From Bacteroidota bacterium (GTDB lineage Bacteria; Bacteroidota; Bacteroidia; Bacteroidales; NBLH01), in contig JANYKN010000160.1 in NCBI GenBank assembly GCA_025361565.1, positions 1-64,000 of the forward strand: a stretch of DNA of 64,000 nt, read 5' to 3'. This document shows positions 10,041 through 39,300 of the stretch, in pieces. The position numbers and the translations under genes were made by a program. Positions within the stretch are counted from its first letter, which is position 1; every line of letters begins with the position of its first letter. The notes beneath the pieces were generated by a model that worked only from the letters and a program-made list of their open reading frames with translations, was not told the DNA's origin and did not search any database.

Positions 10041-10083
10041 AAGTTCAATTTTAAAACATAGGGGATGACTCTTGTCTTTGTTC

Positions 10084-10112: not shown

Positions 10113-10201
10113 GGCAATTCGCCTCTGGGTTTCTTATGATGCTCCCTGCTTATTTCTGATTTTTCTTTCTAATTTAGCCATCAAAATCAATAGAATATTC
10201 A

Positions 10202-10795
10202 TTGGAAACTGCTGATAAAAAACTGCTGTCTGAAATTAAAAACAATCGGGAGAGCGCTTTTGACGAACTTTTTAGGAAGTACTATAAAAACCTAACTTAT
10301 TTTGCTATTAAAATTGTAAAAAATCGTGAAACCGCAGAAGAAGTTGTGCAGGATCTACTAGTGAATTTTTGGGAAAAACGGCATCAATTGGAACCCACCA
10401 TTTCATTAAAAGCTTATTTATTCAGGGCAGTTTTCAATAATTGTGTTCATTATAATAAAAATGAAAAACGGTTTGAAAAAACCGATGTTTCATTTGCCAA
10501 TGATTTGAGTAGCGATTTTGAAAATTTATTGGAACAAAATGAATTAGAAACACGGATATATGAATTGATTGAGCAATTGCCAACCGAATGCAGGAAAATC
10601 TTCAAACTGAGCCGTTTTGAAGAATTAAAATATAAGGAAATAGCCGCACAGCTCAATATTTCGATAAAAACGGTTGAAACTCAAATGTCAAGAGCTTTAA
10701 AATTTATTAGATTGAATTTGGGTGATTATATTAAAATATTGATATTTATGTTGTTAGAAATTAGTGCATCGACAAGCTCAGCAACCGGAATTTAG
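10202..10795 (+). CDS. ECF RNA polymerase sigma factor
   Basis: A 197-residue sigma-70 family ECF factor. Sigma region 2 spans about residues 12-80 (FDELFRKYYKNL, then AEEVVQDLLVNFWEK). Region 4 spans about 120-170 with the helix-turn-helix YKEIAAQLNISIKTVE. The start is a TTG at 10202: an in-frame stop lies at 10175-10177 and no ATG or GTG is available between. A fecR-type anti-sigma gene follows, so this is a cell-surface-signalling sigma. The last ten or so residues (ISASTSSATGI) are encoded by a dispersed repeat also found elsewhere in the window, so the natural C-terminus may have been replaced. Confidence 0.88.
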   Translation: METADKKLLSEIKNNRESAFDELFRKYYKNLTYFAIKIVKNRETAEEVVQDLLVNFWEKRHQLEPTISLKAYLFRAVFNNCVHYNKNEKRFEKTDVSFANDLSSDFENLLEQNELETRIYELIEQLPTECRKIFKLSRFEELKYKEIAAQLNISIKTVETQMSRALKFIRLNLGDYIKILIFMLLEISASTSSATGI

Positions 10796-10800
10796 CGCTT
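10757..10800 (+). repeat. Dispersed repeat, core TCGACAAGCTCAGCAACC (copy 1)
   Basis: Contains ATCGACAAGCTCAGCAACCG. The same core occurs at 24580-24630 (inverted), 33340-33392 and 43317-43392. This copy overlaps the 3' end of the ECF sigma gene and supplies its stop codon. Confidence 0.7.
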
Positions 10801-10948
10801 CGGCTCCAGTGACCATTATTCATTCATTTATGAATTCACTCATTCATTATCAATCAAATATAAACCGAGGATGAAAATTTGTAACAAGAAATAAATTAAT
10901 CTTGTAGGGGTAAGCAAAGTTTTTTTCCTCTTAGTTCCAGAGACAATT

Positions 10949-11950
10949 ATGAAAGAAAAAAGTAACAATAGTATTGATGATTTGTTGATCAAGTATTTAA
11001 CAGGATTGGCCTCAAAAGAGGAAATTTTGGACTTCGAAAATTGGTCAGATTTAGATGAAAACAACCGTGATTATTATCGGAAGTTTAAATCTGTTTGGGA
11101 ATCATCGTCAAATTTGAAGGAATACAATGATATTGATGTTGAAAGTTCTTTGAAAAATGTGAAAAAACGAATTGATTTTGAGAAAAACAATGAAAAGGCT
11201 GTAGTTCTTTGGATGTTTGCCAGAATTGCCGCAGTGCTTGTTTTCTTTTTTGGCATTTATTTGGTTTTTAAATCGAAAAGTGGTTTAGATGAAAGCAATA
11301 AATTGGTAAAAATTGAAGCTTTAAACGAGAAGAAAACAGTCATTTTGCCTGATAAAACCATTGTGACTTTGAATTTGTCATCTTCGATTGAATATCCTTC
11401 AGAATTCAAAGGCAATGAGCGAAGAGTGAAATTTGAAGGTGAAGCCTATTTTGAAGTACATCACGACAAAAAGAAACCTTTTATTATCGAAACAAGGCAA
11501 TCTGAAGTTAAAGTAGTGGGAACTGCCTTTAATCTTAAAGCAATTGTCAATGATCGGGATGAAAGTATTGTGGTTACTGAAGGTCTAGTTCTATTTTCTG
11601 GAAAAGCCAACAAGACAAAAATTCCTATAAGTTTGAAAAAAGGAGAGAAGGGTATTCTAGTTCAAGAACAAAACCTTTTGTTTAAGGAGGAAAACCGGGA
11701 TTTGAATTTCATGTCATGGAAAACAGGGGTATTTGAGTTCAATAATTCACCGTTAACAGAAGCTTTGATTGTGTTTTCGGGTTTTTATAAATGCAATTTT
11801 AAAGTAATCGACAGTCAATTGAATTCCTATCAAATTAGCGGAAAGTACGAAAAGCTTAAATTGGAAGAATTAATTGAGGTACTTGAGTTGACTATTCAGG
11901 TGAAAATTGAGAAATCAGGGCAAACCTATTTGATAAAAGAGGCAAAATAA
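10949..11950 (+). CDS. FecR-family anti-sigma factor
   Basis: Inner-membrane anti-sigma regulator, 333 residues. A cytoplasmic N-terminal part (about 1-88) is followed by one membrane segment (about 90-108, ending FGIYLVF). The periplasmic FecR domain includes LPDKTIVTLNLSS, EGEAYFEV and VVGTAFNLKA. A C-terminal DUF4974-like domain (about 255-333; YQISGKYEKLKLEELI) would contact a partner. It should hold the upstream sigma factor until an outer-membrane signal arrives. The gap to the sigma gene is 153 bp and contains short ATTC repeats. Confidence 0.9.
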   Translation: MKEKSNNSIDDLLIKYLTGLASKEEILDFENWSDLDENNRDYYRKFKSVWESSSNLKEYNDIDVESSLKNVKKRIDFEKNNEKAVVLWMFARIAAVLVFFFGIYLVFKSKSGLDESNKLVKIEALNEKKTVILPDKTIVTLNLSSSIEYPSEFKGNERRVKFEGEAYFEVHHDKKKPFIIETRQSEVKVVGTAFNLKAIVNDRDESIVVTEGLVLFSGKANKTKIPISLKKGEKGILVQEQNLLFKEENRDLNFMSWKTGVFEFNNSPLTEALIVFSGFYKCNFKVIDSQLNSYQISGKYEKLKLEELIEVLELTIQVKIEKSGQTYLIKEAK

Positions 11951-11958
11951 GAAAAACT

Positions 11959-13212
11959 GTGCATAAATTTTCGAAAATCAAATATAATCCGGTTGCTTTT
12001 AAGTTTTTTATGGCTTGCTTGTTGGTTTGTTTGCACTTAAATTTTGAAATCAAAGCACAAAGTATTCTTTCACACAAACTGAATATTGATTTTGAAAACA
12101 CAAATATTGAGGAAATTCTAAAATATCTGCAAAGCAAAGAAAGCATCAGTTTTTCGTATAGTAAAAGCGTTATTAGCCTGAATCAAAAAGTATCGGTACA
12201 TTATAAAAATGCAGAATTGGAAGAAATTTTAGATGGCATTTTCAGTCAATCGGAAATTATGTATAAGGTAAAATCAGGAATAATTATTTTACTCCGAAAG
12301 CCGCAGAATATAAACAAACTGTTAATTGCCGGAACTATAAAATCAATTGAAAATATGGAACCATTGGAGTTTGTTGGCGTACAACTTATTTCCGGAAGTG
12401 GAGGAACAATCACCGATAGCAAAGGAAACTTTAGCCTGTTGATAAAAAAGCAAGAATTGACAGATTCTATAGTTATCTCATCATTAGGTTTTTATAAGGT
12501 TAGTTTTCCGGTTTCTAGTTTTATGCAAAACACTGGACACATAGTTTATTTGAAGCAAAAAATAATTAACCTGGAGGAAGTGAAAGTTCGGGCGAGTGAT
12601 TTTAAAACATTTTCTGCCGGAAATCATAAAATAATATCGTTTGGTTCTATTTATATTGATACACAAGGACAGCAGACTGCTCTTTTTATCGAAAACAAAA
12701 AAAGGAAAAAAGGAACAATTGGCTCGGTAAGTTACTATCTGTCAAAGAAAGGCAACACAAATTCCCCATTTAGGGTAAGGATTTACGAAAGAGATTCTTT
12801 GACCATGAAACCCGGGCGTGACTTGTTGAATGAAGTGATTATAGCAAAACCCGGAATCGATGGCGGATGGTTTAAGGTTGATGTTTCGCAATTCAATATT
12901 GAAGCACCGGTGCAGGGTTTTTATGTGGCAATAGAGGGTATTTTTCCAAATGATTATTTGAATAAAGAGGAAGATTTTGTGGATATTGCAACGAGCAACG
13001 ATAATTATGTACCAAATTCGATCAGTTACGGTCAGCGACTGGGTTATAGCAATAAAAACGGAGAGGATACCTGGCATCTTTCGCTGGCGCATACCTGGTT
13101 TCAATTAAAAGAGCAAAATTACAATGTGATGATTTCAGCAGAAATTCAAACGAAAAAACATAGAAGAAATAAAATAAAAAATCAGAATGAAAATGATGAT
13201 AAAAACATATAA
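11959..13212 (+). CDS. STN plus carboxypeptidase-regulatory-like protein without TonB barrel
   Basis: A 417-residue secreted or periplasmic protein. After a signal segment (residues about 15-33) comes an STN domain (about 38-112; FENTNIEEILKYL), the module that FecR-type anti-sigmas contact in TonB receptors. A carboxypeptidase-D-regulatory-like beta-sandwich follows (about 115-205). The remaining 200 residues form an unrecognised domain instead of a plug and beta-barrel. The start is a GTG (11959), 8 bp after fecR, so the operon is tight. It overlaps the next gene by 26 bp. It occupies the place of a SusC receptor but cannot be a transporter by itself. Confidence 0.8.
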   Translation: MHKFSKIKYNPVAFKFFMACLLVCLHLNFEIKAQSILSHKLNIDFENTNIEEILKYLQSKESISFSYSKSVISLNQKVSVHYKNAELEEILDGIFSQSEIMYKVKSGIIILLRKPQNINKLLIAGTIKSIENMEPLEFVGVQLISGSGGTITDSKGNFSLLIKKQELTDSIVISSLGFYKVSFPVSSFMQNTGHIVYLKQKIINLEEVKVRASDFKTFSAGNHKIISFGSIYIDTQGQQTALFIENKKRKKGTIGSVSYYLSKKGNTNSPFRVRIYERDSLTMKPGRDLLNEVIIAKPGIDGGWFKVDVSQFNIEAPVQGFYVAIEGIFPNDYLNKEEDFVDIATSNDNYVPNSISYGQRLGYSNKNGEDTWHLSLAHTWFQLKEQNYNVMISAEIQTKKHRRNKIKNQNENDDKNI

Positions 13213-20184: not shown

Positions 20185-20949
20185 TTATTCCTTTCCCAAT
20201 TTTTTCTTCCTCGTTAAATCAAGCAAACCGTTTATAATGGTTAGTGGATGGGCAGGGTTGCCAGGAATGTAAAGGTCAATGTGGTATTTATCCAAAAAAG
20301 TACGGTCAATGGCTGGGCTATCCGCAAATATTCCTCCACTTATGGCATCGGTGCCTACAAGCACAATTATTTTGGGTTCAGGCACAGCATCATAACAAAT
20401 TTGAAGTGCTTCGGCCATATTTTGAGTGATTGGACCAGTAATAACAATTCCATCGGCATGGCGCGGCGAAGCAACAAATTCAATCCCAAATCGGCTCATA
20501 TCGAATTGTACATTGTTTGCGGCATTCAGCTCCCACTCACAGCTGTTGTCTCCACCTGCTGAAACTTGCCTTAGCTTAAGCGATTTTCCAAAAACCCGGT
20601 GTATTTCTTTCCTAACTGTTGCGGGATTCACTTCAATGGGAGAATCCATTCCCTCACTGATTATTAATCGGTTACGTTCGTTACTTGAAATTTTATAATC
20701 TTTGGTAAAGCTTATTTTTTGGGGAAAAGCACGGGCACATTCGCCGCAAAAAGTACATTTACCCAAATCGATAGAAACTGGATCTAAGCCGATGGCATTT
20801 ATGGGACAAAGTTCAACCAATTCCTGCTCATCAACCTTTTCGTTAGTGATAACAGGCCTTCCCCTAAAAATACCGGGAACTTCCACTTTGGTCACATCAG
20901 GAATAAATTGCTTGCCCTGGTGATATATAATTTTTAATATTTCTATCAT
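20185..20949 (-). CDS. Ehr/hydrogenase-4-like electron-transfer subunit: ferredoxin domain fused to NuoB/HycG-like domain
   Basis: A 254-residue fusion. Residues 30-80 are a two-cluster ferredoxin motif reduced to one: C48, C65, C68 and C71 remain, enough for one 4Fe-4S cluster, while the first CxxCxxC is absent and the last cysteine is F75. Residues about 125-240 are the small-subunit (NuoB/HycG) fold. There the proximal-cluster ligands are D134, C137, D201 and N231 in place of four cysteines. The protein belongs to the membrane complex encoded upstream. Electron transfer through a normal proximal cluster looks impossible. Family assignment is firm, function uncertain. Confidence 0.88.
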   Translation of the reverse strand: MIEILKIIYHQGKQFIPDVTKVEVPGIFRGRPVITNEKVDEQELVELCPINAIGLDPVSIDLGKCTFCGECARAFPQKISFTKDYKISSNERNRLIISEGMDSPIEVNPATVRKEIHRVFGKSLKLRQVSAGGDNSCEWELNAANNVQFDMSRFGIEFVASPRHADGIVITGPITQNMAEALQICYDAVPEPKIIVLVGTDAISGGIFADSPAIDRTFLDKYHIDLYIPGNPAHPLTIINGLLDLTRKKKLGKE

Positions 20950-21018
20950 ATCGTACTATTTTACTATGCTTCTACGAATTAGTTATCTTCTTTTCTTCTT
21001 TTCGAAAGTCGGTTTAAT

Positions 21019-21090
21019 GCTTGAATGAGTGAATAAATAAATGCTTAAATGTTCTAATGCGTGAATGCTTAAATGCATGAATGATTTAAT
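21019..21090. repeat. Tetranucleotide-type repeat (GAAT/AAAT/GAGT)
   Basis: Imperfect runs of TGAATGAGTGAATAAATAAATGC and related words. The same type is found at 21378-21455, 22988-23082, 10816-10856 and 32195-32216. It lies in the 508-bp gap between two Ehr cluster genes. Confidence 0.6.
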
Positions 21091-21237
21091 AAAGTTTCTT
21101 TTAGACATTTCACTGCATTATTTGTGTTATCTTTCATTAGCATTTAAAAATATATTGTTTTTATCAAATTTGTTCTTTCTTGTACTTTACCAACTTATAT
21201 ATTGTATGTATTGAGTCCAATAGTGCATACAAAATAT

Positions 21238-21338
21238 AACCGCAAAGAACTGCAAAGAAAAAATACGCAGAGAGCCGCAGAGAAAGCCTCTTCCTTTCTC
21301 TGCGTTTCTTTGCATTTTCTTTGCGATTCTCAGCGTTA
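21238..21338. repeat. Long imperfect hairpin, CGCAAAG/CGCAGAG type
   Basis: AACCGCAAAGAACTGCAAAG and CGCAGAGAGCCGCAGAGAAAG on the left are complementary to CTTTCTCTGCG, TTTCTTTGCA and CTTTGCG on the right. The arms are about 45 nt with a 6-7 nt loop (CCTCTTC). A palindromic intergenic element, probably of the dispersed kind. Confidence 0.65.
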
Positions 21339-21377
21339 AGAAAGCTTTATTCATTTGTTCAGAGATAGTTGTTTATT

Positions 21378-21455
21378 TCTCATTTTTTCTCATTCACTCA
21401 TTAATTCTTTATTCATGCACTTATGCATTCACCCATTCACTCACTCATTCATTTC
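21378..21455. repeat. Tetranucleotide repeat (ATTC/ACTC)n
   Basis: Imperfect TCATTCACTCATT words, ending directly at the 3' end of the large-subunit gene. Same family as at 22988-23082. Confidence 0.6.
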
Positions 21456-21457
21456 CA

Positions 21458-22957
21458 CTACAAATCATGCCCACAATACGATAAATTGAAACTCTTGTTG
21501 CAAATCGGGAAATCTGATATTTCGTTGTTTCGCACTGCCAAAGCCAAAGCCAACCAATTATGGAAAGAAGGATCTTTTATTTTGTAAACAATCAGTTCAC
21601 CTTTCTCATCGGTAATGGCGCAATGGCAAATTTCACCTCTCCAACCTTCTACCAGTGAAATGGCAAATGAATTTGTTTTTGGGACATTTAAGATTGTATC
21701 TTTTACAGGATTTTCCAACGGATTATTGAGCAAATTACGGATATATTCAATGGATTGTCTAACTTCCTTTTTGCGTATTTGCAAGCGCGAAAATACATCA
21801 CCATGGTGTTTGATAACCGGTTCATGTTTTAATTGAGGGTATAAACTGTAGGGATGTGATTGCCTAATATCCCTGTTCAATCCACTCATGCGGGCCGACA
21901 TTCCAACTGTGCCAATGGACAGAACATCGTCATAGGTAACAATCCCAGTTCTTTCAAAACGCGAAAGTGCACTTGGCAGCTTAAATAGTTCCGAATTCAT
22001 TTCAACAAAGTCGGGCTCAAATTTATCCAGTACAACTTTTAATCGATTGGATAATGCTTCAGTAATTGGAAATTGGTTTCGTCCGGGCCTAATCAAACCT
22101 TTGGCAAGTCGGTTTCCGCACCATTCCTGAAAATAATTGACCATGGGAGTGCGCAAGCGGCCAAAAACCGAGCTGCCCAATTGATAAGCAATATCGGTAC
22201 AGGCAGCGCTTAAATCTCCGGTATGTATTGCAATTCGTTCCAATTCCAGCGCCAAAGTGCGGGACAATTCAATATCGGGTGATGCTTTAAAACCACACAG
22301 GCTTTCCCATACATGCGCAAATGCAGTGGTGTGCCCGGCAACAGTGTCACCTGCAATATTTTCGGCCAAAGTGGTTCGCTGAAGCATTTTTTTCTTGTCC
22401 AAAAATAGTTGCTCCAAGCCACGGTGTTGGTATCCCAATTGAATTTCAAGATGAAGTATTTGCTCGCCATTGCACAAAAACCTGAAATGTCCGGGCTCTA
22501 TAACACCTGCGTGAATCGGGCCAACCCCAACTTCGTGCAATTCCTCGCTATCAATGGAGAAGAATGGGTAATTGGCTATTGTGCGTGATTTGTCAGATCT
22601 GTTGAAAGGATAACGAACTGGCTTTAACCAGGGATGATCAATATAGTCGATTTCGAAATTTTCATGGATTTCGGGTTCAAATTTCTCGAAAGAAAAATTT
22701 ATGGCTGTAAAAGAATGAAGTTTGACAGGTGTTTGAACCAAGCACGATGATACATAAATTTGATGTTCCGTATCATCAGCTATACAACAAATTAAGTTGA
22801 TTTGATTATTGTATTTGTAACCGAAGTAGTTTACACAATGCCTTTCGGGATGCTTGATTAACAAACCAGTGTTCAACTCCAAAAAAGAATCATATTCATT
22901 CTGGGGAATTTCAGAAATGGATATGGTTTGATTATTTGATATGCTTATATAGTTCAT
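21458..22957 (-). CDS. Ehr/hydrogenase-4-like large subunit (NuoCD/HycE-like) without NiFe ligands
   Basis: A 499-residue protein with an N-terminal NuoC-like part (about 1-110) and a NuoD/HycE-like part. GVGPIHAGVIEPGHFRF (144-160) and LGYQHRGLEQLF (174-185) are family hallmarks. In true hydrogenases the next motif is ERVCGIC; here it is ENIAGDT (199-205), with no cysteine. At the C-terminus the DPCxxC motif is replaced by SFNLSYCGHDL (489-499). All four nickel ligands are therefore missing. This is the signature of energy-converting-hydrogenase-related (Ehr) complexes. It probably conveys conformational or redox energy to the membrane arm; its substrate is unknown. Confidence 0.9.
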   Translation of the reverse strand: MNYISISNNQTISISEIPQNEYDSFLELNTGLLIKHPERHCVNYFGYKYNNQINLICCIADDTEHQIYVSSCLVQTPVKLHSFTAINFSFEKFEPEIHENFEIDYIDHPWLKPVRYPFNRSDKSRTIANYPFFSIDSEELHEVGVGPIHAGVIEPGHFRFLCNGEQILHLEIQLGYQHRGLEQLFLDKKKMLQRTTLAENIAGDTVAGHTTAFAHVWESLCGFKASPDIELSRTLALELERIAIHTGDLSAACTDIAYQLGSSVFGRLRTPMVNYFQEWCGNRLAKGLIRPGRNQFPITEALSNRLKVVLDKFEPDFVEMNSELFKLPSALSRFERTGIVTYDDVLSIGTVGMSARMSGLNRDIRQSHPYSLYPQLKHEPVIKHHGDVFSRLQIRKKEVRQSIEYIRNLLNNPLENPVKDTILNVPKTNSFAISLVEGWRGEICHCAITDEKGELIVYKIKDPSFHNWLALALAVRNNEISDFPICNKSFNLSYCGHDL

Positions 22958-22987
22958 ATAAAAAGCTTATATTTTATAGTTTGAAAT

Positions 22988-23082
22988 ATTCACTCATCCA
23001 CTCATTCATTCATTTACTCATTCATTCATTTACTCATTCATTCATTCATTCATTCATTCACTCACTCACTCATTCACTCATT
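22988..23082. repeat. Tetranucleotide repeat (ATTC/ACTC)n
   Basis: About 95 bp of almost pure 4-bp units (CATT, CACT, TTCA) fill most of the gap between the HyfF-like and large-subunit genes. On the transcribed minus strand this reads as GAAT/GAGT repeats with many overlapping ATG and TGA triplets. Confidence 0.8.
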
Positions 23083-23087
23083 AAAAT

Positions 23088-24515
23088 CTACTTTGGTAAA
23101 AATTGAACACTTTCTTCAATGAGTTTTACAAACTCAAGAGGGGGATTTAATCCCAAATAGATTGCCAAACCAATTAGGATAAATTGAGAGAATGATTCCC
23201 ATGGGTTTATAACCGGGAGATTGCTTTCATCAAATCCAACAACCGGGATGAATAAAATTTTAAAAATATTTTTTCCAAAAGCCCAAATAATCATAGTGAG
23301 TAAAAGCAAAACCGATATCAGCAATAGAATCTGGTTTGCTTCGAACATGGACCTAAAAATAAGAAATTCACTCACAAACATCCCTGAAGGTGGCATGGCG
23401 GTGGCACTAATAAATCCCAACAACAATACCATGGCACCTGTTGAATTATATTTAAAATAGTTCCCTACATGATATATGCTTTTATTTTGAAATATCCTGT
23501 AAACTTGAGTAAATTGAAAGAACAGACTTGATTTTACAAAGGCGTGCAATATAATGTGTAAAATTGCTGCATAGTAACCAATACCTCCAGCAGCAATACC
23601 GAGCATTACAATACCCATATGTTCTATTCCGGAATATGCCAACATCCTTTTGATGTTTTTAACCTTAATCATGTAGACAGTTGCTACAAATATGGATAAA
23701 AAAGCTGCAATGCCAATAACCATATTGGCCCAATGGTGAAGCGGAGTGTTGGCGATAACAATATAAAAACGGAAAACTCCTACAAAACCCAAATTCATCA
23801 ATACGCTTGCCAATAGAGCACCTGCAGGAGCAGGAGCCTTGTCTTTTGCATCAATGCCGGCAGTAAACATGGGCACAAGTCCCAATTTGGCAGTAAACCC
23901 GGTAAAAATAAATACAAAGGCAAGCCTTAACCAGAATGTATTTAGTTTTGAACTATTAGTCAACAGATTTCTAAAAGATAGATCAGTTGAACCTCCCTGT
24001 TCCATTGATATACTTAAAAATAAAATTCCAATAAAAACAAAAGTAATACTGAGTGCGCAGATGAATACATATTTCCAGGTGCCTTCGAGTGCAAGTTTAT
24101 TTCTATGGTGATAAATGAGTGCAGATGCACTTAATGTGGTGATTTCTGTAAATATCCAGATTACAGCAATATGGTTGGCAAGATATCCTGCACCAATAGC
24201 AGTTATTAGTGATATCAGTGCAGCAAAATAAATACCTCTAGCCTGAGGGTTTTCATGGTGTTTCTCTACATAAATACCGCTATGAATGGCAGCAGGGATG
24301 GCAATGATACTAAGAGTAATCATTAATAAAATCCCTAAAGAATCAAAAGTGAAATAATCGATTTCGGTTGAATTGAATCGATAACAAGCGTATATCGTAA
24401 ATCCCCATTGTACCAGCAAAAATAAGCCAACAAGGCTGTAATTAACTTTTTTATTCCGGTTTATAAATAGGCCAATTCCGATGGAAAAGGCTACAATCAA
24501 GTAAAGTAAAGTCAT
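23088..24515 (-). CDS. HyfF-like proton-conducting membrane subunit
   Basis: A 475-residue antiporter-like subunit (Proton_antipo_M family) with about 13 membrane segments. Family motifs include WIFTEITTLSASALIYH (glutamate of the proton path, about residue 131), a lysine segment FTAKLGLVPMFTAGIDAKDKAPAPAGALLASVLM, here without the usual histidines of HyfB, and IKRMLAYSGIEHMGIV. A HAFVKSSLFF segment follows. It would be the third ion-translocating subunit of the complex. It lies 126 bp downstream of the HyfE-like gene, a gap that carries a dispersed repeat. Confidence 0.88.
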   Translation of the reverse strand: MTLLYLIVAFSIGIGLFINRNKKVNYSLVGLFLLVQWGFTIYACYRFNSTEIDYFTFDSLGILLMITLSIIAIPAAIHSGIYVEKHHENPQARGIYFAALISLITAIGAGYLANHIAVIWIFTEITTLSASALIYHHRNKLALEGTWKYVFICALSITFVFIGILFLSISMEQGGSTDLSFRNLLTNSSKLNTFWLRLAFVFIFTGFTAKLGLVPMFTAGIDAKDKAPAPAGALLASVLMNLGFVGVFRFYIVIANTPLHHWANMVIGIAAFLSIFVATVYMIKVKNIKRMLAYSGIEHMGIVMLGIAAGGIGYYAAILHIILHAFVKSSLFFQFTQVYRIFQNKSIYHVGNYFKYNSTGAMVLLLGFISATAMPPSGMFVSEFLIFRSMFEANQILLLISVLLLLTMIIWAFGKNIFKILFIPVVGFDESNLPVINPWESFSQFILIGLAIYLGLNPPLEFVKLIEESVQFLPK

Positions 24516-24579
24516 AATAAGACAAATGACAAAAGTTTAAAGACAAAATTCAAATAACAAATAACAAAATTCAATTTCC

Positions 24580-24630
24580 AATTTCACAGTTTCGGTTGCT
24601 GAGCTCGTCGAAGCACTAAATTCCAATTTC
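24580..24630 (-). repeat. Dispersed repeat, TCGACAAGCTCAGCAACC family (copy 2, inverted)
   Basis: On the minus strand it reads TTTAGTGCTTCGACGAGC then TCAGCAACCGAAACTGTG. It is nearly identical over about 45 bp to 33340-33392. It lies in the gap between the HyfE- and HyfF-like genes. Confidence 0.75.
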
Positions 24631-24641
24631 TAATTACTTCT

Positions 24642-25274
24642 TTAGTAATCTTTCAAATTCGTAAGCTGATCCACATCCACATCTTTAAAAACATCTCCAA
24701 TTTTATTCAGAAAAATACCTAAAATGAGTACACTGGCAAAAATATCAAGCATAATTCCAAGATTTACAAGCATGGGCATTTCATTGCCAACAGCCAGAGA
24801 CAGCACAAAAACCCCATTTTCAATAACCATATACCCCATTACGTGGGTTATGATTTTTCTTCGTGTTGCAATCAGGTACATTCCAAAGAATAATGAGGAT
24901 AGGGCAACCACAAAAAATATTTTATCCAAATGTGTATCTTTTATACTGTGCGAAAGTAAAATAGTAATTACTACAATGAAAGTGGTAATAATTAGTGAAA
25001 CAAAATTTGGCAAATATGGTTCCGCTTCACGAGTAATATTATTTCGTTTAAGAATATAAGCCAGGAAAAAAGGGACTGCAAGTGATTTAAAAACAATGGT
25101 TTCTAACAGAATGAGCACCAAATTTAAAGTAGTAATATCTTTTAGTTGGATAAAAACAACAAAAAACAGCAAAATTCCCTGAAACGCCAGCACTTTAATA
25201 TAAGTTAGCATACGGTTGGCGATGGCCATATAAAACAAAGTCATTAGCAATATAATAAGCAGTACATCAATCAT
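24642..25274 (-). CDS. HyfE-like membrane subunit (NuoK-related)
   Basis: A 210-residue membrane protein with about seven hydrophobic segments. It has the features of HyfE, the NuoK-like subunit of hydrogenase-4 and Ehr complexes: a short hydrophobic repeat region, a basic loop ATRRKIITHVMGYMVIENGVFVL (E in the membrane near residue 153) and a final segment VNLGIMLDIFASVLI. It sits between the HyfC-like and HyfF-like genes, the standard order. The conserved membrane glutamate supports a role in the proton path. Confidence 0.85.
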   Translation of the reverse strand: MIDVLLIILLMTLFYMAIANRMLTYIKVLAFQGILLFFVVFIQLKDITTLNLVLILLETIVFKSLAVPFFLAYILKRNNITREAEPYLPNFVSLIITTFIVVITILLSHSIKDTHLDKIFFVVALSSLFFGMYLIATRRKIITHVMGYMVIENGVFVLSLAVGNEMPMLVNLGIMLDIFASVLILGIFLNKIGDVFKDVDVDQLTNLKDY

Positions 25275-25293
25275 TTGTTTGTCATATTATAAA

Positions 25294-26199
25294 TTATAGA
25301 AATTTTCCGGAAACCAGTAGAACGCCAAAAAATATAAGCAATGCCACCGATGTAAGAGCTACTATAAACTGGGCATTGTGGCTCATCCTGAATCGTGCCA
25401 TAAAAGATTCGATAAGCCCCACTAAAACAGCCATAAAAGCCTCAATTGCAAAAAACAATGGAATAGCATATTGATAGGAGACCATGCCTACAAAAAGATT
25501 AAAAATAAGAGCACCGAAAATTGCAAATTTCAAATATCCGGCAGTAAGAATAAGCCCCAGATCAAATCCGCTGTTGTCCAATATCATTACTTCATGAACC
25601 ATAGTAAGTTCAAGATGAGTTTTGGGATCATCGATTGGCATGCGGCTATTTTCAACCATGGCAACCATTAACAGAACAAAAGTTGCAAGGGTTGCAATTG
25701 CATAGCTTACATAAGAGCCAAGGTGCAAGGCTGAAAAGATTTCCTGGAAAGAAGAAAAACCGGTAAGGATAGCCAGCGAACCCATCAATATAAAAAAAGC
25801 AGGCTCAGCAAACATCGAATATAGTGCTTCGCGGCTGGCGCCCATTCCTTCGAAGCTGCTTCCGGTATCCAGGGCTGAAATAATACTAAAAAATTTACCC
25901 AAAGCAAGCACATAAGCAAAGAAAATAAAGTCGCCATTAAAGCTTATTAAGCCTTTTGATTGCCCAAAAGGAACCACAAGCATAGCCATTATTATAGAAG
26001 AAAAGTATATGGTAGGTGCAATTTGAAAGATGAAACTCGTGGTTTCACTATAAACTGAACCTTTTTTAAAAAGCCGGATTACATCTTTTATAGGTTGCAG
26101 TAAACCTGGGCCTTTTCGTCCGGATGCAATGCTTTTTGTACGGATAACAATACCTGTGAAAAAGATTCCTGCCAGTATGATTAAAATGACACTCAACAT
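25294..26199 (-). CDS. HyfC/HycD-like membrane subunit (NuoH-related)
   Basis: A 301-residue NuoH-family membrane protein with eight hydrophobic segments. SGRKGPGLLQPIKDVIRLF (27-45) and DDPKTHLELTMVHEVMILD (about 195-213) are diagnostic of the hydrogenase-3/4 and Ehr branch. This subunit anchors the soluble arm to the antiporter-like modules. It begins 1 bp after the stop of the second HyfB-like gene, so it is co-translated with it. Confidence 0.92.
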   Translation of the reverse strand: MLSVILIILAGIFFTGIVIRTKSIASGRKGPGLLQPIKDVIRLFKKGSVYSETTSFIFQIAPTIYFSSIIMAMLVVPFGQSKGLISFNGDFIFFAYVLALGKFFSIISALDTGSSFEGMGASREALYSMFAEPAFFILMGSLAILTGFSSFQEIFSALHLGSYVSYAIATLATFVLLMVAMVENSRMPIDDPKTHLELTMVHEVMILDNSGFDLGLILTAGYLKFAIFGALIFNLFVGMVSYQYAIPLFFAIEAFMAVLVGLIESFMARFRMSHNAQFIVALTSVALLIFFGVLLVSGKFL

Positions 26200-26200
26200 A

Positions 26201-28228
26201 TTAAAGTTGTTTTAAAAAGTCAATAAATAAGAATAATTTTTCATAAATCAGTGGAATGCTGATTGTCAATATGATAAATATAATACCATATAAAATATAA
26301 ATCTGTAATTTTCCATTTTGAAGGAACAGGAATTTGCCCATCAATGATTTATAAGCTTTAATAGGCTTATCGACTAACCATTTTTCAATTTTATCGTATG
26401 GATGTGATTCATAATGTCCGGATGTAGGAAAAATACCACTTATTTCTTTTTCTTTCCTGTAAGTTAGCAGAATGGAGCCATACAGTTTGCTGTATGTTCT
26501 AACAAAAGATCCGGCTGTGTATTGAAGTTTGGATGAAGGTACACTATAGCCGCATCCCCAAGTAGATAAAGTTTCAACTTTTCTGTGGTTCATAACCAAA
26601 TTACGAATTACAAAAACAAGCAGGGCAACTAGTATAAAAAGCCATGTTGCCCAACTAATTTCCTGCATTGCAATAATAGTTGTAACCGGAAAAACAGATG
26701 TACTGATTACTTTTTTTCCCGCCAATAAACCGGTTGGTTCTAAAAGTAAATTCATGAATAAATCAGGAAAAATCCCTATCATTAAAATTAAAATAGTAAT
26801 TAAGTATAATGGAATTAATTGAATAAAAGGAACTTCTTTAATTTTCTCAGGCAATTTACTCCTTTCATTTCCTAAAAAAACAATACCGAAAGCCTTAGTA
26901 AAACAAAACAATGCCAATCCTCCAATTACAACCAATCCAAGAATTGAAAATATGATTAGAATAAGCGAAACCAGTGTTGCATCTTGTAGAGATTGATATA
27001 AGCCTGTGTAGATTATAAACTCAGAAATAAATCCGTTGAAAGGAGGAATTCCGCAGATAGCTATTGCTGAAATTAAAAAAAGTGCTGCGGTTTGAGGCAT
27101 TTTTTTTATTAAACCTCCCAAATGTTCAATATTTAAAGTATGCACAGCCTGATAAACATTGCCGGTAGCGTAGAATAATAAAGACTTAAAAAGTGCATGG
27201 TTCAATGTATGCAGCAAGGCACCTGCAAAACCAAGAGACGCCAATATTAAATTGTTGTTGCCCAATCCAATACACCCTACACCAATGCCTATTCCAATAA
27301 TTCCAATATTTTCGATACTGTGATAGGCAAGTAATTTTTTGAGATTGTGTTGAAGAATAGCAAGCATTACACCATATAATCCTGAAAATCCTGAAATCAC
27401 TAATATAAAATATCCAACATATGTATAATCGGTATTGATTATCATAAGCATGCGGAGTATTCCAAATATTCCAATTTTAATAATTACCCCTGACATAATA
27501 CCTGAAATATGCGATGGTGCAGCAGGATGGGCATAAGGTAACCAGGAATGAAAAGGTACAAAACCTGCTTTAATGGCAAATCCAATAAAAAAACATATGA
27601 AAAGCACCAGTGAATTTGCACTGTTGTGGCTTGCTGTATAGGCACTTATTGCGGAAAAATCGTAACTACCTGTGCGGTAAGCCATCCATATAAAACCCAA
27701 CATTAAAAAAACAATTGAAATGTGTGATTGAATCAGGTAATTAATCCCGGCTTTTATGGTCATTACTTTTTCATGTTCGAAAATTACCAAAAGAAACGCA
27801 GACAGAGCCATTATTTCCCACGCAATTAAAAATACCATTGAATTTTGGATAACACTCAAAGAAATCAGGGCAGAATAACACAATATAAATGCAATGGCGT
27901 GTATCGACAAATTGCTTTTTTGATTTCTATAGGCTTTCATATATGAAAATCCGTAAAAACCTCCTGTTAAAAAAACAAAGTTGATAATTAGCATAAACCA
28001 ACCCGAAAGTGCATCAATATGTAGGTGAATTGGACCAGTGGACCAACTTCCGGATAATGCATAGTCAAATGTTTGGCCAATTAATGTCAATATAGCAATA
28101 TTCCCTGATATCATGGTATTTATAGCAATAGCGGTAAGCAATACAATCCCTTTCCATTTCACATTTAAAAATGGGACAAGAAATATTGTTAAAACCAGTA
28201 CTACAATAAATATTATTACAGCGTTCAT
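26201..28228 (-). CDS. HyfB-like antiporter subunit, second copy
   Basis: A 675-residue protein of the HyfB/HycC type: an antiporter-like core of about 14 membrane segments and a C-terminal extension. Proton-path residues are visible: AWEIMALSAFL (E near 137), GFAIKAGFVPFHSWLPYAHPAAPSH (K near 219), GVIIKIGIFGI and HALFKSLLFY. The WGCGYSVPSSKLQYTAGSF segment near 560 is the HyfB C-terminal mark. It overlaps the upstream HyfB-like gene by 4 bp (ATGA type). The two copies are clear paralogues, so this is a tandem duplication. Confidence 0.92.
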   Translation of the reverse strand: MNAVIIFIVVLVLTIFLVPFLNVKWKGIVLLTAIAINTMISGNIAILTLIGQTFDYALSGSWSTGPIHLHIDALSGWFMLIINFVFLTGGFYGFSYMKAYRNQKSNLSIHAIAFILCYSALISLSVIQNSMVFLIAWEIMALSAFLLVIFEHEKVMTIKAGINYLIQSHISIVFLMLGFIWMAYRTGSYDFSAISAYTASHNSANSLVLFICFFIGFAIKAGFVPFHSWLPYAHPAAPSHISGIMSGVIIKIGIFGILRMLMIINTDYTYVGYFILVISGFSGLYGVMLAILQHNLKKLLAYHSIENIGIIGIGIGVGCIGLGNNNLILASLGFAGALLHTLNHALFKSLLFYATGNVYQAVHTLNIEHLGGLIKKMPQTAALFLISAIAICGIPPFNGFISEFIIYTGLYQSLQDATLVSLILIIFSILGLVVIGGLALFCFTKAFGIVFLGNERSKLPEKIKEVPFIQLIPLYLITILILMIGIFPDLFMNLLLEPTGLLAGKKVISTSVFPVTTIIAMQEISWATWLFILVALLVFVIRNLVMNHRKVETLSTWGCGYSVPSSKLQYTAGSFVRTYSKLYGSILLTYRKEKEISGIFPTSGHYESHPYDKIEKWLVDKPIKAYKSLMGKFLFLQNGKLQIYILYGIIFIILTISIPLIYEKLFLFIDFLKQL

Positions 28229-30231
28229 TGGATAATATCTAAAAATGTAAGGATAAAAATAGCTATAATAAACACAATGCCATATAATACATAAGATTGC
28301 ATACGCCCATTCTGGATAAACTTAAAATAATTTACAGCATAAATTATACGCTGCGTTATTCTATCAATGATGCGGGTTTCAAAAAAATCATGATAAAAAG
28401 TAGCATATTTCCTTGATACTGGAAATATTTCGCCATTATCAATTTCATGAAATTGTTTTCTTTCAATAAGCAGAAAACTGAAAATTTTACCTAAAGGTTT
28501 TGAAAATGATTTTCCGGTATATTGCATTCTTGTATTTGGTGCTGTATAGGAACATCCCCATGTGGGCTCCATTTTTTTTGATTTGTTGCGAACCACATAT
28601 AAACGTATTGTCCAAACAAGCACAATTATTCCTATAAATAGGGTAGAGTATATGCTTATTTTTGAAAGATTTTCTGAATAGCTTAGGAAAGCAGAAGGTT
28701 CAGATATTTCGAAATGACTGAATAAGCCATGTAATATTTTACTGATTGGCTTGATATAAAACAACGGTACAAATGAAACGCTTAACATTGCTGCAATTAT
28801 AAAATATTGCGGAATAAGCATAAGATACGAAACTTCTTGCGGTTTATGATGCATCTTTTCACGGGCACTGCCCAAAAATATTGTACCAAATGTTTTTGTA
28901 AAAGTGAGGATAGAAATTCCTCCAATCATACTAATTCCAGCTAAAGTTAGCACTATCAGACTAATCTGATCGAGGTTATTTGATTTTAAACCTTCAACAA
29001 GGCCGCTATAAATGATAAATTCAGAAATAAATCCATTAAAAGGTGGGATTCCTGCAATGGCAATAGCTCCGATGAGAAATAACAAAGCAGTTTGGGGCAT
29101 GCTTTTTATCAAGCCACCCAATTTATCCATATCGCGGGTGTGGGTTTGCTGATAAACAGATCCTGCCGAATAAAAGAGTAAGGATTTAAACAAGGAATGA
29201 TTAAGCACATGCAGCAAAGCCCCGCCAAATCCCAGATAATATAAAAGTGAAGATCCATTTCCAATTCCAATCATTCCCAATCCAATGCCAATACCAATAA
29301 TACCAATATTTTCGATGGTGCAATATGCAAGCATCCGTTTAAAATCACGATGTACAGCGGCATTTAAAATACCATATATACCAGTGATTATTGAAATAGT
29401 CAATACAATTTCACCAAGCAGAATAAAATCAGAACCAAGAAAAGATGCAACCCGGAAAATTCCATATATACCAAGTTTTACAATTACTCCTGACATCACC
29501 CCTGAAACATGCGAAGGTGCAGCTGGATGAGCATGAGGTAACCATGTATGAAGCGGAATAAATCCTGCTTTGATTCCAAATCCTACGAAGAAAATCAGGA
29601 ACAAAAGAATATTATTAGTGCTATTCGAAAAAGTTTCAATGCCCTGGAAATTGAATGAACTTGTCTGAAAATAAATCCAAATAAATCCAACACTCAAAAA
29701 TGCAACGCTGATGTGCATCTGAACCAGATAATTTATACCTGCCCTAATCGTTTTGGGATTGTTGTGATCGTATATTACCAACAACATCGAAGACAATGAC
29801 ATCACTTCCCATGCCACTAAAAATGCAAAACCGTGTTGCAACATACAAACCCATACCATCGAGAGCTGAAAAAGGATAAACAATATCCAATGTAAATTTA
29901 ACCTAGCTGAAGAATCTTTGTAGGCTTTTAAATAACCTGCACCATAAAAAACACCGGTTATAGAACTAAAGTTGATAATTAGGATGAACCATGCCGATAA
30001 ATCATCAATATGTATGGATATGTTTCCAAAAAACGAACCTGCGGATACTAAGAAATCCAGATTGTTCCCTGTTAATACGTGCAGCGCCAGAAAACTTGTT
30101 GCAAAAGCATTAAAGAGTACGGCAGATGCAGCCAAATGTGCCTTATATCTGTATGGAATAAAGAATATAGATATAATGGCAATGATCGTAAGAAACGATG
30201 AAATATTTAATAGAAAGTCCAGTCCAAACAT
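28225..30231 (-). CDS. HyfB-like antiporter subunit, first copy
   Basis: A 668-residue HyfB/HycC-type subunit, the first gene of the cluster. The core has AWEVMSLSSML (E near 141), GFGIKAGFIPLHTWLPHAHPAAPSH (K near 221), GVIVKLGIYGIF, NIGIIGIGIG and HSLFKSLLFYSAGS. The C-terminal HyfB mark WGCSYTAPNTRMQYTGKSF is near residue 565. It shares many identical segments with the next gene. On the minus strand, about 40 nt upstream of the start, a sequence TTTACTTTGC approximates a promoter -7 element. The 144-bp intergenic region is shared with a divergent Crp/Fnr regulator. Confidence 0.92.
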   Translation of the reverse strand: MFGLDFLLNISSFLTIIAIISIFFIPYRYKAHLAASAVLFNAFATSFLALHVLTGNNLDFLVSAGSFFGNISIHIDDLSAWFILIINFSSITGVFYGAGYLKAYKDSSARLNLHWILFILFQLSMVWVCMLQHGFAFLVAWEVMSLSSMLLVIYDHNNPKTIRAGINYLVQMHISVAFLSVGFIWIYFQTSSFNFQGIETFSNSTNNILLFLIFFVGFGIKAGFIPLHTWLPHAHPAAPSHVSGVMSGVIVKLGIYGIFRVASFLGSDFILLGEIVLTISIITGIYGILNAAVHRDFKRMLAYCTIENIGIIGIGIGLGMIGIGNGSSLLYYLGFGGALLHVLNHSLFKSLLFYSAGSVYQQTHTRDMDKLGGLIKSMPQTALLFLIGAIAIAGIPPFNGFISEFIIYSGLVEGLKSNNLDQISLIVLTLAGISMIGGISILTFTKTFGTIFLGSAREKMHHKPQEVSYLMLIPQYFIIAAMLSVSFVPLFYIKPISKILHGLFSHFEISEPSAFLSYSENLSKISIYSTLFIGIIVLVWTIRLYVVRNKSKKMEPTWGCSYTAPNTRMQYTGKSFSKPLGKIFSFLLIERKQFHEIDNGEIFPVSRKYATFYHDFFETRIIDRITQRIIYAVNYFKFIQNGRMQSYVLYGIVFIIAIFILTFLDIIQ

Positions 30232-30340
30232 TTAAGTAATCCGCTTTTTATTTACAAGGTGCAAAGTAAAGTAATAAAATGAAAGAAGTATCTGAGAATA
30301 GTCATTTTAAAATTTGACATTAATCAATTAAAGAATTGAC

Positions 30341-30364
30341 TATATTTACAATTTTGTAAATATA
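30341..30364. promoter_or_regulatory. Perfect palindrome, candidate operator of the Crp/Fnr-like regulator
   Basis: TATATTTACAA and its complement TTGTAAATATA are separated by TT: 11-bp perfect arms ending 11 bp before the regulator start codon. The symmetry and spacing suit a dimeric Crp/Fnr protein, suggesting autoregulation. The cluster start is 110 bp away on the other strand. Confidence 0.55.
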
Positions 30365-30375: not shown

Positions 30376-31080
30376 ATGGATAATACAGAATATTTTCCAA
30401 TAGAGAAATTTACATCAAAGAGCGATTCTATTTTTAAAAATATTCCAGCAGAAGTTAGGTTGGAGCTGGAAAAGCAAATGGTCAATAAAACGATTAGAAA
30501 AGGACAAAACCTATTTTTAGAAGGCTCATATCCTGCTGGGATTTTCTATTTGAAAGAAGGACTGGTAAAAAAATACAAAACCGACCATGAAGGGAAAGAG
30601 CACATACTTTATTTGTGTTCGGAAGGAGAATTGCTGGGTTATTCAGCTCTTTTATGTAACGAAGCTTATCCTGATTCTGCAGCCGCAATCGAAACATCTA
30701 AACTAGGTTTTATTTCGAAGGAATATTTTTTAAAAACGCTTAATGATTCTCACGAATTGATGCTTAATCTTTTATCCAGCCTTAGCCATGAGTTTAGCAT
30801 TTTGACTAATAGTATAACCGTTTTTGCACATATGACTGTTCGCGAAAGGCTTGCCCTCATATTGCTCATATTGATTGCAAAATTTAAAAAAAGATCTGAA
30901 TCAGATCCTGTTGAAATTATACTTTCGCGTGAGGATCTTTCTAATATGGTGGGTGCAGCCACCGAAACAGTTGTTCGTTTGATCAAGGAATTTAAAAAAG
31001 AGGAAATTATTAAAATTGTAGGAAAGAAAATTATCGTATTAAAACCTAATGAATTGGTTACTATGTCAAAGTTTTATTAA
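30376..31080 (+). CDS. Crp/Fnr family transcriptional regulator
   Basis: A 234-residue regulator with an N-terminal cyclic-nucleotide-binding-like beta-roll (about 15-130; KGQNLFLEGSYPAGIFYLKEG) and a C-terminal winged helix (about 155-225). The recognition region is SREDLSNMVGAATETVVRLIKEF. It has no N-terminal cysteine cluster, so it is not an Fnr-type oxygen sensor with an iron-sulphur centre. The effector is unknown. It is divergent from the Ehr cluster and may regulate it. A palindrome overlaps its leader. Confidence 0.9.
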   Translation: MDNTEYFPIEKFTSKSDSIFKNIPAEVRLELEKQMVNKTIRKGQNLFLEGSYPAGIFYLKEGLVKKYKTDHEGKEHILYLCSEGELLGYSALLCNEAYPDSAAAIETSKLGFISKEYFLKTLNDSHELMLNLLSSLSHEFSILTNSITVFAHMTVRERLALILLILIAKFKKRSESDPVEIILSREDLSNMVGAATETVVRLIKEFKKEEIIKIVGKKIIVLKPNELVTMSKFY

Positions 31081-36378: not shown

Positions 36379-39300
36379 CTATATTTTAAGTCCAATCACA
36401 AGAATATCGTCAGTTTGATGATTTGTTCCCTGAAATTCAGTAATTCTATTTTCCAGAATTTCTTTTTGTTCAGTAAAGGGTTTTTGATGTATCTCGAGCA
36501 ATAAATTATAGAAATTTTTCCTTAAAAACTTGCGATCAGTTATTTCACCATATTGATCCTGATAACCGTCGGAACATAGATAAATGCAGTCTTCATCCTG
36601 AAGCTTAATGATATGATTGGTAAAGGGTTTCATGGACATGTCTTTAAAAAAGTGGATGCCAATTGGCATTTTATCTCCTTTAATTTCATGAATTTCGCTA
36701 TTTCTGATTAAAATGAATGGATTGTATGCTCCTGAAAATTGTAATTCTTTTATTTCTTCATCATAGATACAAAGTGCAAGATCCATTCCATCCCTGGTGG
36801 AATCTTTGTCATCATTTTGGTGTAAAGTCTTTATAATATTATCTCTCAAATCATCCAATATTTTAGATGCTACGACTTCAGTCTTGGCAATTTTCCTGAG
36901 ATGTTTTGATATCAAATCATTTAATAACGAAATTCCCAATAAGCTCATAAATGCTCCGGGAACTCCATGTCCAGTACAATCTGCAACAACAATGATTGTA
37001 TAATTAAAAAACTTTTTCACAAGGTAAAAATCGCCCGAAACAATATCTTTGGGGCGGAATACAATAAAATCTTCTCTAAATGGAATGTCTTTGGTTACTT
37101 TTAATGCTGCGAACTGAATACGTTTGGCATATTCTATACTGTTTTTAATATTATTGCTTTGTTCTTCCAAAACATTGTGCTGTTCAACCAGGGCTAATTT
37201 TTGTTCCTCAAGCACAAGATTTTTATTGCTAATTTCATTTTTCTGAAATTCAAGCAATTCGTTAATCGCCATTATTTCTTCTTTTTGCTGAATTAGTTCT
37301 TCGTGCTTTTCAATAATTTCGTTTTTTTGAGAGGTCAAAATTTCATTTTTGATCTCAATTTCTTCATGTTGCAATTGAAGGTCTATGTTCATTGCTTCAA
37401 CTATTTCTGATGTTGCAGTAAGTTCATCAATTTTATCGTCAAGTTCAAATTGTTTTTGCTCCAGATCTTTTTTTTGCAGCATCAATTTTTCAACCGCTTT
37501 CTTTTTCTCCGTTTCATCATGAATTACTTCGATGGCTCCGTCATAATTTCCATCATTGTCGTAAATGGCCACCGCCACGCCAATTACATATTTCTCTTCA
37601 CCTTGCAAATTAGGAACATAGGATTGAGCTTGTAATATATCGCCCTTTCTAACAATGTTTGTATAGTTTTTTTCAATATAATCTTTCGGCATCTTGGCAA
37701 AATCGATAAGCATTGGCCTTCTTTCACCATAGAAAGTGATTGAATATTCGTGATCTTTTTTGCCCAAAATTTCATCAGCTTTAACTCCTGTAAGTTTTTC
37801 CATTACAGAGTTCCAGAAAGTGACAACCCCATCTTTATTTATAATAAATACTGCATCAGGAATAGACAATAAAATGGTTCTAATTCGTCGTTCTGAGTCT
37901 TCCAATGAATCACGCTGTGCAAGAATTTCCTCTTGCTGTTGCATCATTTCTTCATTTACCTGTTTGATTTCCTCCAAAGCATCGGTAAGTTCTTCAGTAC
38001 GCTTAGCTACTATTTTTTCAAGATTTTGGTTGAGATCGTTCAGTTCATCCTGCATCTTTTTCAATTCGGAAATGTCAGTAACCATTGCAAATGAACCGGT
38101 TATTCTTTGAGTTGAAAAATCGAATTTTGGAGTGCCACTTAACAGGCAGCTTATTTTATTTCCATCTGATTGTATGAGGTTTAATTCATAGCTTCCCTTT
38201 TTGCCTTTATGTCTTGAAGCAATCTGGTTTTTGAATTCTTCCAGATTGTTATTATCTATAAATTCAACAAGTGTTCTGCCAACAATATCTCCTTTTTTAA
38301 GAATGTGTTTCATTGCCGGATTTGCATCAATAATAACTCCATCCAAATCAATTTCAACATATCCGGCAAGCATTGTGGTGAGGATATTTTCAAATTTTTG
38401 CTTGTTGGCTTCTAAATCGTCGTAGGATGCTTTTGCCTCGTTTTGCAAGAAATAATGACAGTTTTCCGGTTTATTCAAATTGTTTTTTATTGCAGTAGCC
38501 ATGCTTTCGCACGAATTATATCCACACGAAGTGCAGTTTTTAACATCTTCGTCAGAATATTTACGCATCCGACTATAAATATCTTTGAGCTCACCTTTTG
38601 TTGGGTAATCAATCTTTACATTTTCCCAACGGTTAACATAGTTTCTTACATATAAATCGTCATCCCAATATTGATCTATTATATGCTCTACTTTGTTCCT
38701 GCTTTTTTCGACATTATTCCCATTTTCGGAAAGATATTTTTCTTTTAATTCACGGGCTCTTTTTTTTACCCAATATTCGACTTCATCCTGAGGTTTGTCT
38801 TTTGTTATAGTAAGAGGCCCACCATTGCACCCATATTCACAACTCAAACAATCGATTAGTAATGGTGATTTTTCTTCCTCAATCATTTTGGGAAGCGTTT
38901 TAAGATAATTATAAACCAAAGGTACCCCCTCAATTTTTCTTGAACTTTGCTCTAATTCAGGTATCCAGCGTTTGGCTGTTTCAAGCAAGCCACCAGGCGA
39001 CGAAAACAATACGGCTCTTTCAGCAGAAGGATTGTCAAAATTTGTTTGTGGAAAAGTACTAAGGTCAACATTATTTTTTTGAAGAAAATCATCAACCGAT
39101 TTTTGTGCTATATTATAATCCCCAAGGCCAGTAGCAATAAATTCTCTTTTTTTTGCATTGCATGGCGAAATAATGGCAATTTTACAATCCTTAAATTGTG
39201 GATAATATGTTTTCACCATTTTCATGGTATGGAGCATAGGGCTGTCAACTGGTGCCAAATGTTGTATTAGTTCAGGCTGATACAATTCAATATAAGTTAC

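Follow-up and report, generated by a model that had tools for sequence, protein, structure and literature searches.

The locus described here raises the question of how a membrane complex built like a hydrogenase or complex I might work once the site of its redox chemistry has gone. It lies in a 64,000-nucleotide stretch of contig JANYKN010000160.1 of a Bacteroidota genome (GCA_025361565.1; the whole stretch is called the window), where a minus-strand run at positions 20185-30231 consists of seven open reading frames (ORFs), transcribed in the order of two hyfB-like genes, HyfC-, HyfE- and HyfF-like genes, the large subunit gene and the small subunit gene. A first-pass annotation had described the run as an energy-converting hydrogenase-related (Ehr) cluster without nickel ligands, and the positions of the ORFs and their Pfam/NCBIfam families were in agreement with that description. 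As judged from alignments, none of the family rows examined has a [NiFe] site, and most Bacteroidota have also lost the proximal [4Fe-4S] cluster (N2 of complex I); this ligand loss is accompanied by conservation of the large-subunit pocket, the antiporter subunits, one [4Fe-4S] site and the greater part of the E-channel. We tentatively favour an Ehr complex that has kept its membrane arm and peripheral core, has lost [NiFe] and N2, and translocates ions without redox drive at the former site, as an antiporter or on conformational or ligand input.

The large subunit (EhrL; 21458-22957, on the minus strand like all genes of the cluster; 499 amino acids (aa); PF00346, 118 bits) is NuoC- and NuoD/HycE-like and was aligned to Escherichia coli HycE (PDB 7z0s_E, E 1.1e-33). 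ENIAGDT (residues 199-205; 22343-22363) stands where the first nickel CxxC motif would be, and SFNLSYCGHDL (residues 489-499; 21461-21493) where the second would be; in the latter, S493, Y494, G496 and D498 are invariant. The alignment placed A202, T205 and S493 at nickel-ligand positions; G496, the fourth, was read from the DPCxxC spacing, since the printed alignment ends at residue 494. None of the four is a cysteine, as had been claimed from the motifs, and the ligand set of a group 4 [NiFe] hydrogenase is therefore missing. Among 152 family rows, window included, the second to fourth positions (205, 493 and 496) were never cysteine and the first (202) was cysteine in 14; in the 121-row set this was seen in 13 rows, nine of them labelled Melainabacteria. 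The best alignments to solved chains were those with E. coli HycE and Pyrococcus furiosus MbhL, and the predicted model (predicted local distance difference test, pLDDT, 84) matched HycE with Z 40.8 and a root-mean-square deviation (rmsd) of 3.0 over 479 residues, NuoC-like domain included. An Asp-Leu or Asp-Ile C-terminus was found at the same column in 120 of 121 large subunits, the remaining one being cut by its contig. Because this column is presumably the place where HycE is cut on maturation, the large subunit seems to be encoded at mature length. For the quinone site, comparison with complex I consisted of a pairwise alignment with Thermus subunit 4 alone.

The first-pass annotation had not noted that the small subunit has lost its N2 cysteines too and that its ferredoxin half has ligands for one cluster only. 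This subunit (EhrS; 20185-20949; 254 aa) is a ferredoxin-NuoB/HycG fusion (PF01058 and a weak Fer4 match), and its NuoB-like half reads GDNSCEWE, GTDAISGG and GNPAHP at the usual CxxC, GxC and GCP. In the small-subunit alignment N2 cysteines are replaced by D134 (20548-20550), D201 (20347-20349) and N231 (20257-20259); C137 (20539-20541), the sole N2-ligand position still cysteine in the window, is variable in relatives. The window thus lacks the proximal [4Fe-4S] cluster of group 4 [NiFe] hydrogenases and complex I, which is usual in the Ehr complexes outside Bacteroidota studied here and is not stated as defining for Ehr in the literature consulted. Among 107 aligned small subunits, 64 had at most one of the four N2 cysteines (N2-minus; window and locus L078 included), 42 had all four (N2-plus) and one was truncated. 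The replacements are patterned: in 63 N2-minus rows (L078 set aside), position 134 was D in 59, E in three and A in one, position 201 was D in 61, E in 1 and H in 1, and position 231 was N in 59, A in 3 and S in 1, with position 137 varying. At most two cysteines were present in the whole NuoB-like half in 44 of these 63 rows. The only complete Fe-S ligand set of the window protein comprises C48, C65, C68 and C71 (20737-20808), which we assign, on the assumption of the usual two-cluster pattern, to cluster II (N6b-like position); it was present in 41 of the 42 N2-plus rows. The ferredoxin half held at most six cysteines in 62 of the 63 N2-minus rows, too few for a second cubane. The predicted small-subunit model (pLDDT 91) matched HycG over residues 112-250 (Z 15.2, rmsd 2.0, 138 residues), the ferredoxin half being barely covered. 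The reverse loss was observed in L159, an N2-plus small subunit without the four ferredoxin cysteines. L078 is a divergent Ehr-like cluster with a separate upstream small subunit that has no ferredoxin half and has lost its N2 ligands too, perhaps independently.

The distribution of the N2-less form was surveyed in 295 genomes of the order and in 395 genomes drawn from the phylum. The Ehr large subunit was found in 70 of the 295 (69 clear and the divergent G012). A search with an N2-plus query (E up to 1e-40) found the small subunit in 67, of which 64 lacked the N2 ligands and three had them (G162, G246 and G261). In the phylum survey (E up to 1e-45) 15 genomes encoded the small subunit, 13 N2-plus and two N2-minus (the window's own genome and G303). 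Sixty-nine named loci were scored. The 40 N2-plus loci came from Melainabacteria (9), Thermodesulfobacteriota (8, including Geobacter argillaceus), Myxococcota (6), Planctomycetota (3), Verrucomicrobiota (2) and seven other phyla with one each (one being Bacteroidota, L131), and five had no phylum in the lookup. The 29 N2-minus loci were 28 from Bacteroidota, including Prolixibacteraceae, Marinifilaceae, Rikenellaceae (Alistipes), Flavobacteriaceae (Lutibacter), Cyclobacteriaceae and Saprospiraceae, and one labelled Phycisphaerae (L107), which falls within a Bacteroidota clade, through transfer or misbinning. N2 loss is nearly confined to Bacteroidota, the cluster being kept in 39 of the 40 scored Ehr loci not labelled as such.

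The trees were compatible with few changes of N2 state. Two were counted on the large-subunit tree of 121 rows, where the long-branched L078 accounts for one, three on a 152-row large-subunit tree made with a simpler model, and two on a small-subunit tree without the ligand columns. A single N2-minus clade was not rejected (approximately unbiased test, p 0.1, 80 versus 14 rows), and one to three losses, or loss and regain, may all be accommodated. The 121-row comparisons left out L078 (which is divergent, has no ferredoxin half and retains at most one N2 cysteine), the truncated L132 and 14 loci without a scored small subunit; L078, L093 and L100 were left out of the 152-row tree, and these together with L132 and L159 out of the small-subunit tree.

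In the large subunit, H149, E154, C162, E171, R179, E199, D204, N274, R283, E398, R440, S493, Y494, G496 and D498 were kept in all 63 N2-minus and all 42 N2-plus rows, with one exception each at E154 and C162 in the 152-row set. R179 sits in the HRGxE motif. Its counterpart in Yarrowia complex I, R121, belongs to the second shell of N2; in mutants both N2 and the quinone reductase activity are lost, the complex being structurally intact (PMC8042128). Counted on the HycE alignment, E154, H245, R356, E398 and R440 correspond to HycE E193, H284, R395, E437 and R478, which are proton-donor, canopy and proton-path residues (PMC9474812). The canopy residue Ser283 was replaced by Ile, Val or Met in 62 of the 63 N2-minus rows and the canopy residue Asp529 by Asn in 51. 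C41, C162, C253 and C444 formed a candidate four-cysteine replacement site: C41, C253 and C444 were present in 58, 58 and 61 of the 63 N2-minus large subunits and in 2, 4 and 15 of the 42 N2-plus rows, all three occurring together in N2-plus L066 and L071. C41 and C253 track the Bacteroidota lineage, these two N2-plus loci included, and where either is absent the residue is mostly V, I, L, A or S, equally compatible with buried side chains.

The first-pass annotation had also proposed an ion-pumping machine, and most of the residues expected of an ion-translocating membrane arm have been kept. The two HyfB/NuoL-like antiporter subunits, EhrA-1 (28225-30231, 668 aa) and EhrA-2 (26201-28228, 675 aa) by analogy, matched PF00361 with 187 and 191 bits and have the Glu of transmembrane helix (TM) 5, the Lys of TM7 and TM8 and the Glu of TM12. 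In subunit 1 the key residues are E142, K221, K252 and E404 (motifs AWEVM, GIKAG, IVKLG and ISEF) and in subunit 2 E138, K220, K251, H340, H344, K348 and E403. A Glu chain (E124, E132, E183, E197 and E203) is conserved in the HyfC/HycD/NuoH-like subunit (EhrB by inference; 25294-26199, 301 aa, PF00146). The HyfE-like subunit (EhrC by analogy; 24642-25274, 210 aa), with E152 and D177 invariant, was assigned by PRK11492 (HyfE) at E 1.6e-19, below that family's curated cut-off, and the HyfF/NuoN-like antiporter subunit (EhrD by inference; 23088-24515, 475 aa) by PF00361. Across the family, the seven HyfB residues in subunit 2 numbering and HyfC E132, E183, E197, E203 and E264 were conserved in 99-100% of rows of both N2 classes; with HyfF E124, K210, K328 and E383 and HyfE E152 and D177 added, the range was 94-100% in either class. 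These counts cover ORFs within set length limits, L078 included (N2-minus/N2-plus: HyfB 76/30, HyfC 52/32, HyfE 54/28, HyfF 58/34).

The contiguous antiporter-type, HyfC-, HyfE- and HyfF-like, large and small subunit genes, together with a large subunit devoid of [NiFe]-site cysteines, place the window cluster among the Ehr complexes; the absence of these cysteines is given as a mark of Ehr in PMC10284858 and PMC6349859, and 'in most cases' in PMC3569383. Kinship was measured on G. argillaceus (L146), Geobacter being the lineage in which Ehr was named: its large subunit is 41% identical over residues 5-499 and lies in a hyfB-C-E-F-large-small run. A complete run of this kind was present in 85 of 120 loci examined, and such recurrence indicates that the cluster is not due to chance. 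Two adjacent hyfB genes were found in 24 of the 85 (23 N2-minus, one N2-plus). The other 35 loci were mostly interrupted by contig ends; expected neighbours were absent in L053, L070, L123 and L127, the gene order differed in L078, and the listed order deviated in L121, L143 and L162, perhaps through over-long ORF starts. Among the matches listed, at least 569 of 588 candidate stretches from one genome collection encode an Ehr relative.

The window was said to contain no hyp gene. None was seen there, and the genome carries HypD elsewhere, with hypA-, hypB-, hypE- and hypF-like ORFs beside an apparent group 1 [NiFe] hydrogenase (contig C48; ORF reading). Fifty of the 70 Ehr-positive genomes had no HypD, 38 of these being at least 95% complete, which indicates that Hyp maturation is not needed; HypD occurred at a similar frequency where Ehr is missing (82 of 225 genomes; Fisher p 0.25). 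A further large or small subunit, encoded elsewhere, that might complete the complex was also looked for and rejected. Genome-wide, PF00346 matched contigs C11 and C108 and this cluster, and PF01058 matched these and contig C48; by ORF reading, C11 and C108 carry two complex I operons and C48 the small subunit of the group 1 hydrogenase.

Of the two inputs that had been suggested, a supply of electrons to the large subunit is unlikely, given the loss of the proximal cluster through which they would come, and conformational input may still hold. In the reading tentatively favoured here, electrons would be unable to reach the large-subunit pocket, and D134 and D201 would offset the charge of the invariant second-shell R179 and so hold the arm folded. 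The complex would be a monovalent cation/proton antiporter, or be conformationally driven, and its peripheral arm could gate it through a ligand, through the state of the remaining [4Fe-4S] cluster, or through both; the complex would operate in the manner of deactive complex I. We put the antiporter first on two grounds: deactive bovine complex I is reported to carry out Na+/H+ antiport (PMC3990385), and the Ehr of a methanotroph has been suggested to serve pH homeostasis (PMC6688271).

Several observations weigh against this reading. All 63 N2-minus rows have C48, C65, C68 and C71, and such strict conservation suggests a redox sensor or entry point. The NuoB-like half held three to seven cysteines in 19 of the 63, and a flavin, a disulphide or another carrier may be compatible with the sequence. 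HydABC-type [FeFe]-hydrogenase genes lie behind Ehr on the same strand in the N2-minus genome G073 (L084, 9399-13546; ORF reading). In the membrane arm, HyfF is without the TM8 Lys (VLMNL there), and the E-channel residues E199 and E201 of HycD align with Lys and His in the window HyfC. N2-plus G162 was placed among N2-minus rows on the large-subunit tree, indicating that the N2 switch was possibly repeated or reversed. The N2-less Yarrowia mutants are made at 25-40% of the wild-type amount (PMC8042128), and the path that Na+ takes through complex I has yet to be identified (PMC3990385).

The invariance of the four ferredoxin ligands would equally suit a redox-driven pump, in which a soluble dehydrogenase or hydrogenase passes electrons to the one [4Fe-4S] cluster in the ferredoxin half, from which they go on to an unidentified nearby acceptor, a conformational change then driving ions without N2. 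The genes downstream in G073 could supply such a partner, as could Hox-type [NiFe] hydrogenase genes behind Ehr in N2-plus G246 (L085, 3952-8526), beyond which lie cobalt/nickel-transport-like and HypB-like genes, and, in G027, a NuoF-like gene some 4 kb upstream (the Hox-type and NuoF-like genes being ORF readings). A formate dehydrogenase-Ehr complex has been hypothesised for other phyla (PMC6349859). Geobacter Ehr subunits, seen by proteomics, were more abundant on formate or in coculture (PMC7894505, PMC8691401); the formate result from Geobacter sulfurreducens (PMC7894505) probably concerns the N2-plus form, judged from G. argillaceus L146. Such a pump is nevertheless somewhat unlikely: when 895 ORFs neighbouring 120 loci (flank lengths uneven) were clustered all against all, no neighbour was shared by four or more N2-minus loci, the N2 loss isolates the pocket, and in 62 of 63 N2-minus rows the cysteines of the ferredoxin half do not suffice for two cubanes.

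Ion flow could also be coupled to non-redox chemistry in the pocket, e.g. hydration or hydrolysis of a small molecule, as has been proposed for the DAB-type CO2-accumulating complexes. H149, E154, C162, E199, D204, R440, S493 and Y494 in 105 of 105 rows irrespective of N2, H157, E442 and H445 in nearly all of them, and the shared Asp-Leu/Asp-Ile end would fit a pocket still at work, but this conservation may be structural, no metal or substrate is known, and no DabA-like ORF was recognised in the window by eye, without a dedicated search; we consider such chemistry improbable. Two cofactor losses and the scattered presence of Ehr in the order (70 of 295 genomes) could point to a complex decaying toward loss. 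This is very hard to reconcile with the long diversification after N2 loss, with window ORFs that are full length relative to their relatives, and with ratios of non-synonymous to synonymous substitution rates (dN/dS) of 0.02-0.37 across the 26 gene pairs computed, values that are rough because seven more pairs were saturated and several dS exceeded 1. All five small-subunit pairs gave a dN/dS of 0.05-0.23, showing purifying selection on the N2-less form.

The sole neighbour cluster shared by four or more loci was an apparent helix-turn-helix (HTH) and EIIA (phosphotransferase system) protein near the first hyfB, found in ten N2-plus loci (L118, L131, L146 on the opposite strand, L151, L153, L156, L157, L160, L161 and L163) and in no N2-minus locus. 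It suggests a possible phosphotransferase link to the N2-plus Ehr. A CRP/FNR-family regulator identified by family search (30376-31080, plus strand) is divergent from the window operon and might regulate it; a protein 66-69% identical to it adjoins the Ehr cluster in L056 and L089. Between the operon and this gene a perfect 11-base inverted repeat with a 2-base spacer was observed (30341-30364), and the equivalent L089 stretch had no inverted repeat listed. A candidate FNR box (30314-30327) was discarded, a single match being set against 0.96 expected by chance. Within the operon, the intergenic stretches 20950-21457 and 22971-23098 carry CATTCACT-type repeats, in the latter in 8-base register and in the former also with imperfect inverted repeats. 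The large and small subunit genes are separated by 508 repeat-rich bases; a hidden gene was looked for there, and no ORF of 80 aa or more was listed. A 1117-residue protein at 36379-39732 (minus strand) reads by eye as a ferredoxin, an [FeFe]-hydrogenase-like domain, PAS and a SpoIIE-like phosphatase, and is a possible H2 or redox sensor. Two Ehr large subunits from different subclades, 61% and 53% identical to that of the window, were observed in G252 (L059 and L077). L094, the sister of the window on the 121-row tree, carries a second hyfB-hyfC pair (1-2842, cut by the stretch end) divergent from a complete Ehr run at 2967-12271. Viral contigs were also scanned, without any hit.

What couples redox chemistry in the peripheral arm of complex I to its distant membrane pumps is a long-standing question, and the Ehr family offers natural matched pairs: gene run and pocket are alike, and the cluster that would feed the pocket is present in one partner and absent from the other. 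Should the N2-less form still move ions, coupling in this superfamily would need no electron arrival at the site. If it does so as the antiporter favoured here, Ehr complexes would perhaps be devices of pH or sodium homeostasis and not hydrogenase relics.

Compared with known systems, the window complex shares with E. coli Hyc and Hyf a HyfB, C, E, F-like membrane arm, and HycE and HycG were the best structural matches of the predicted models of both soluble subunits; unlike these, it has no [NiFe] site, no proximal cluster and no HycB/FdhF-type gene in the cluster, and it keeps the TM7 Lys where HycC of the E. coli formate hydrogenlyase has Leu (PMC9474812). The HyfB-like subunits match MbhH of P. 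furiosus Mbh and the A/D chains of Mrp; the window complex differs in that no MrpB/C/E/F/G-type family was found among its seven genes and in having no cofactor site. With complex I it shares a homologous core and the HRGxE motif with the N2 second-shell Arg, but the window cluster has no NADH module, no N2 and no second ferredoxin cluster, and the hydrogenase-type Glu E154 stands where NDUFS2 of complex I has H95 (PMC9474812). The closest likeness is to Ehr itself (ehrABCDLS, e.g. GSU0739-45 of G. sulfurreducens), which has the same subunit kinds and a large subunit without [NiFe] ligands, as already published (PMC6349859, PMC10284858, PMC3569383), although a D. ruminis complex called Ehr is reported to have the four nickel cysteines (PMC3569383). 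Its function has been called unknown or uninvestigated (PMC10284858, PMC7894505), and no mention of a cluster lost from its small subunit was found in the literature covered. Ehr outside Bacteroidota nearly always keeps all four N2 cysteines (39 of 40 scored loci), unlike the window; the window complex is thus a member of the Ehr family in an N2-less form that is, as far as the literature was checked, new.

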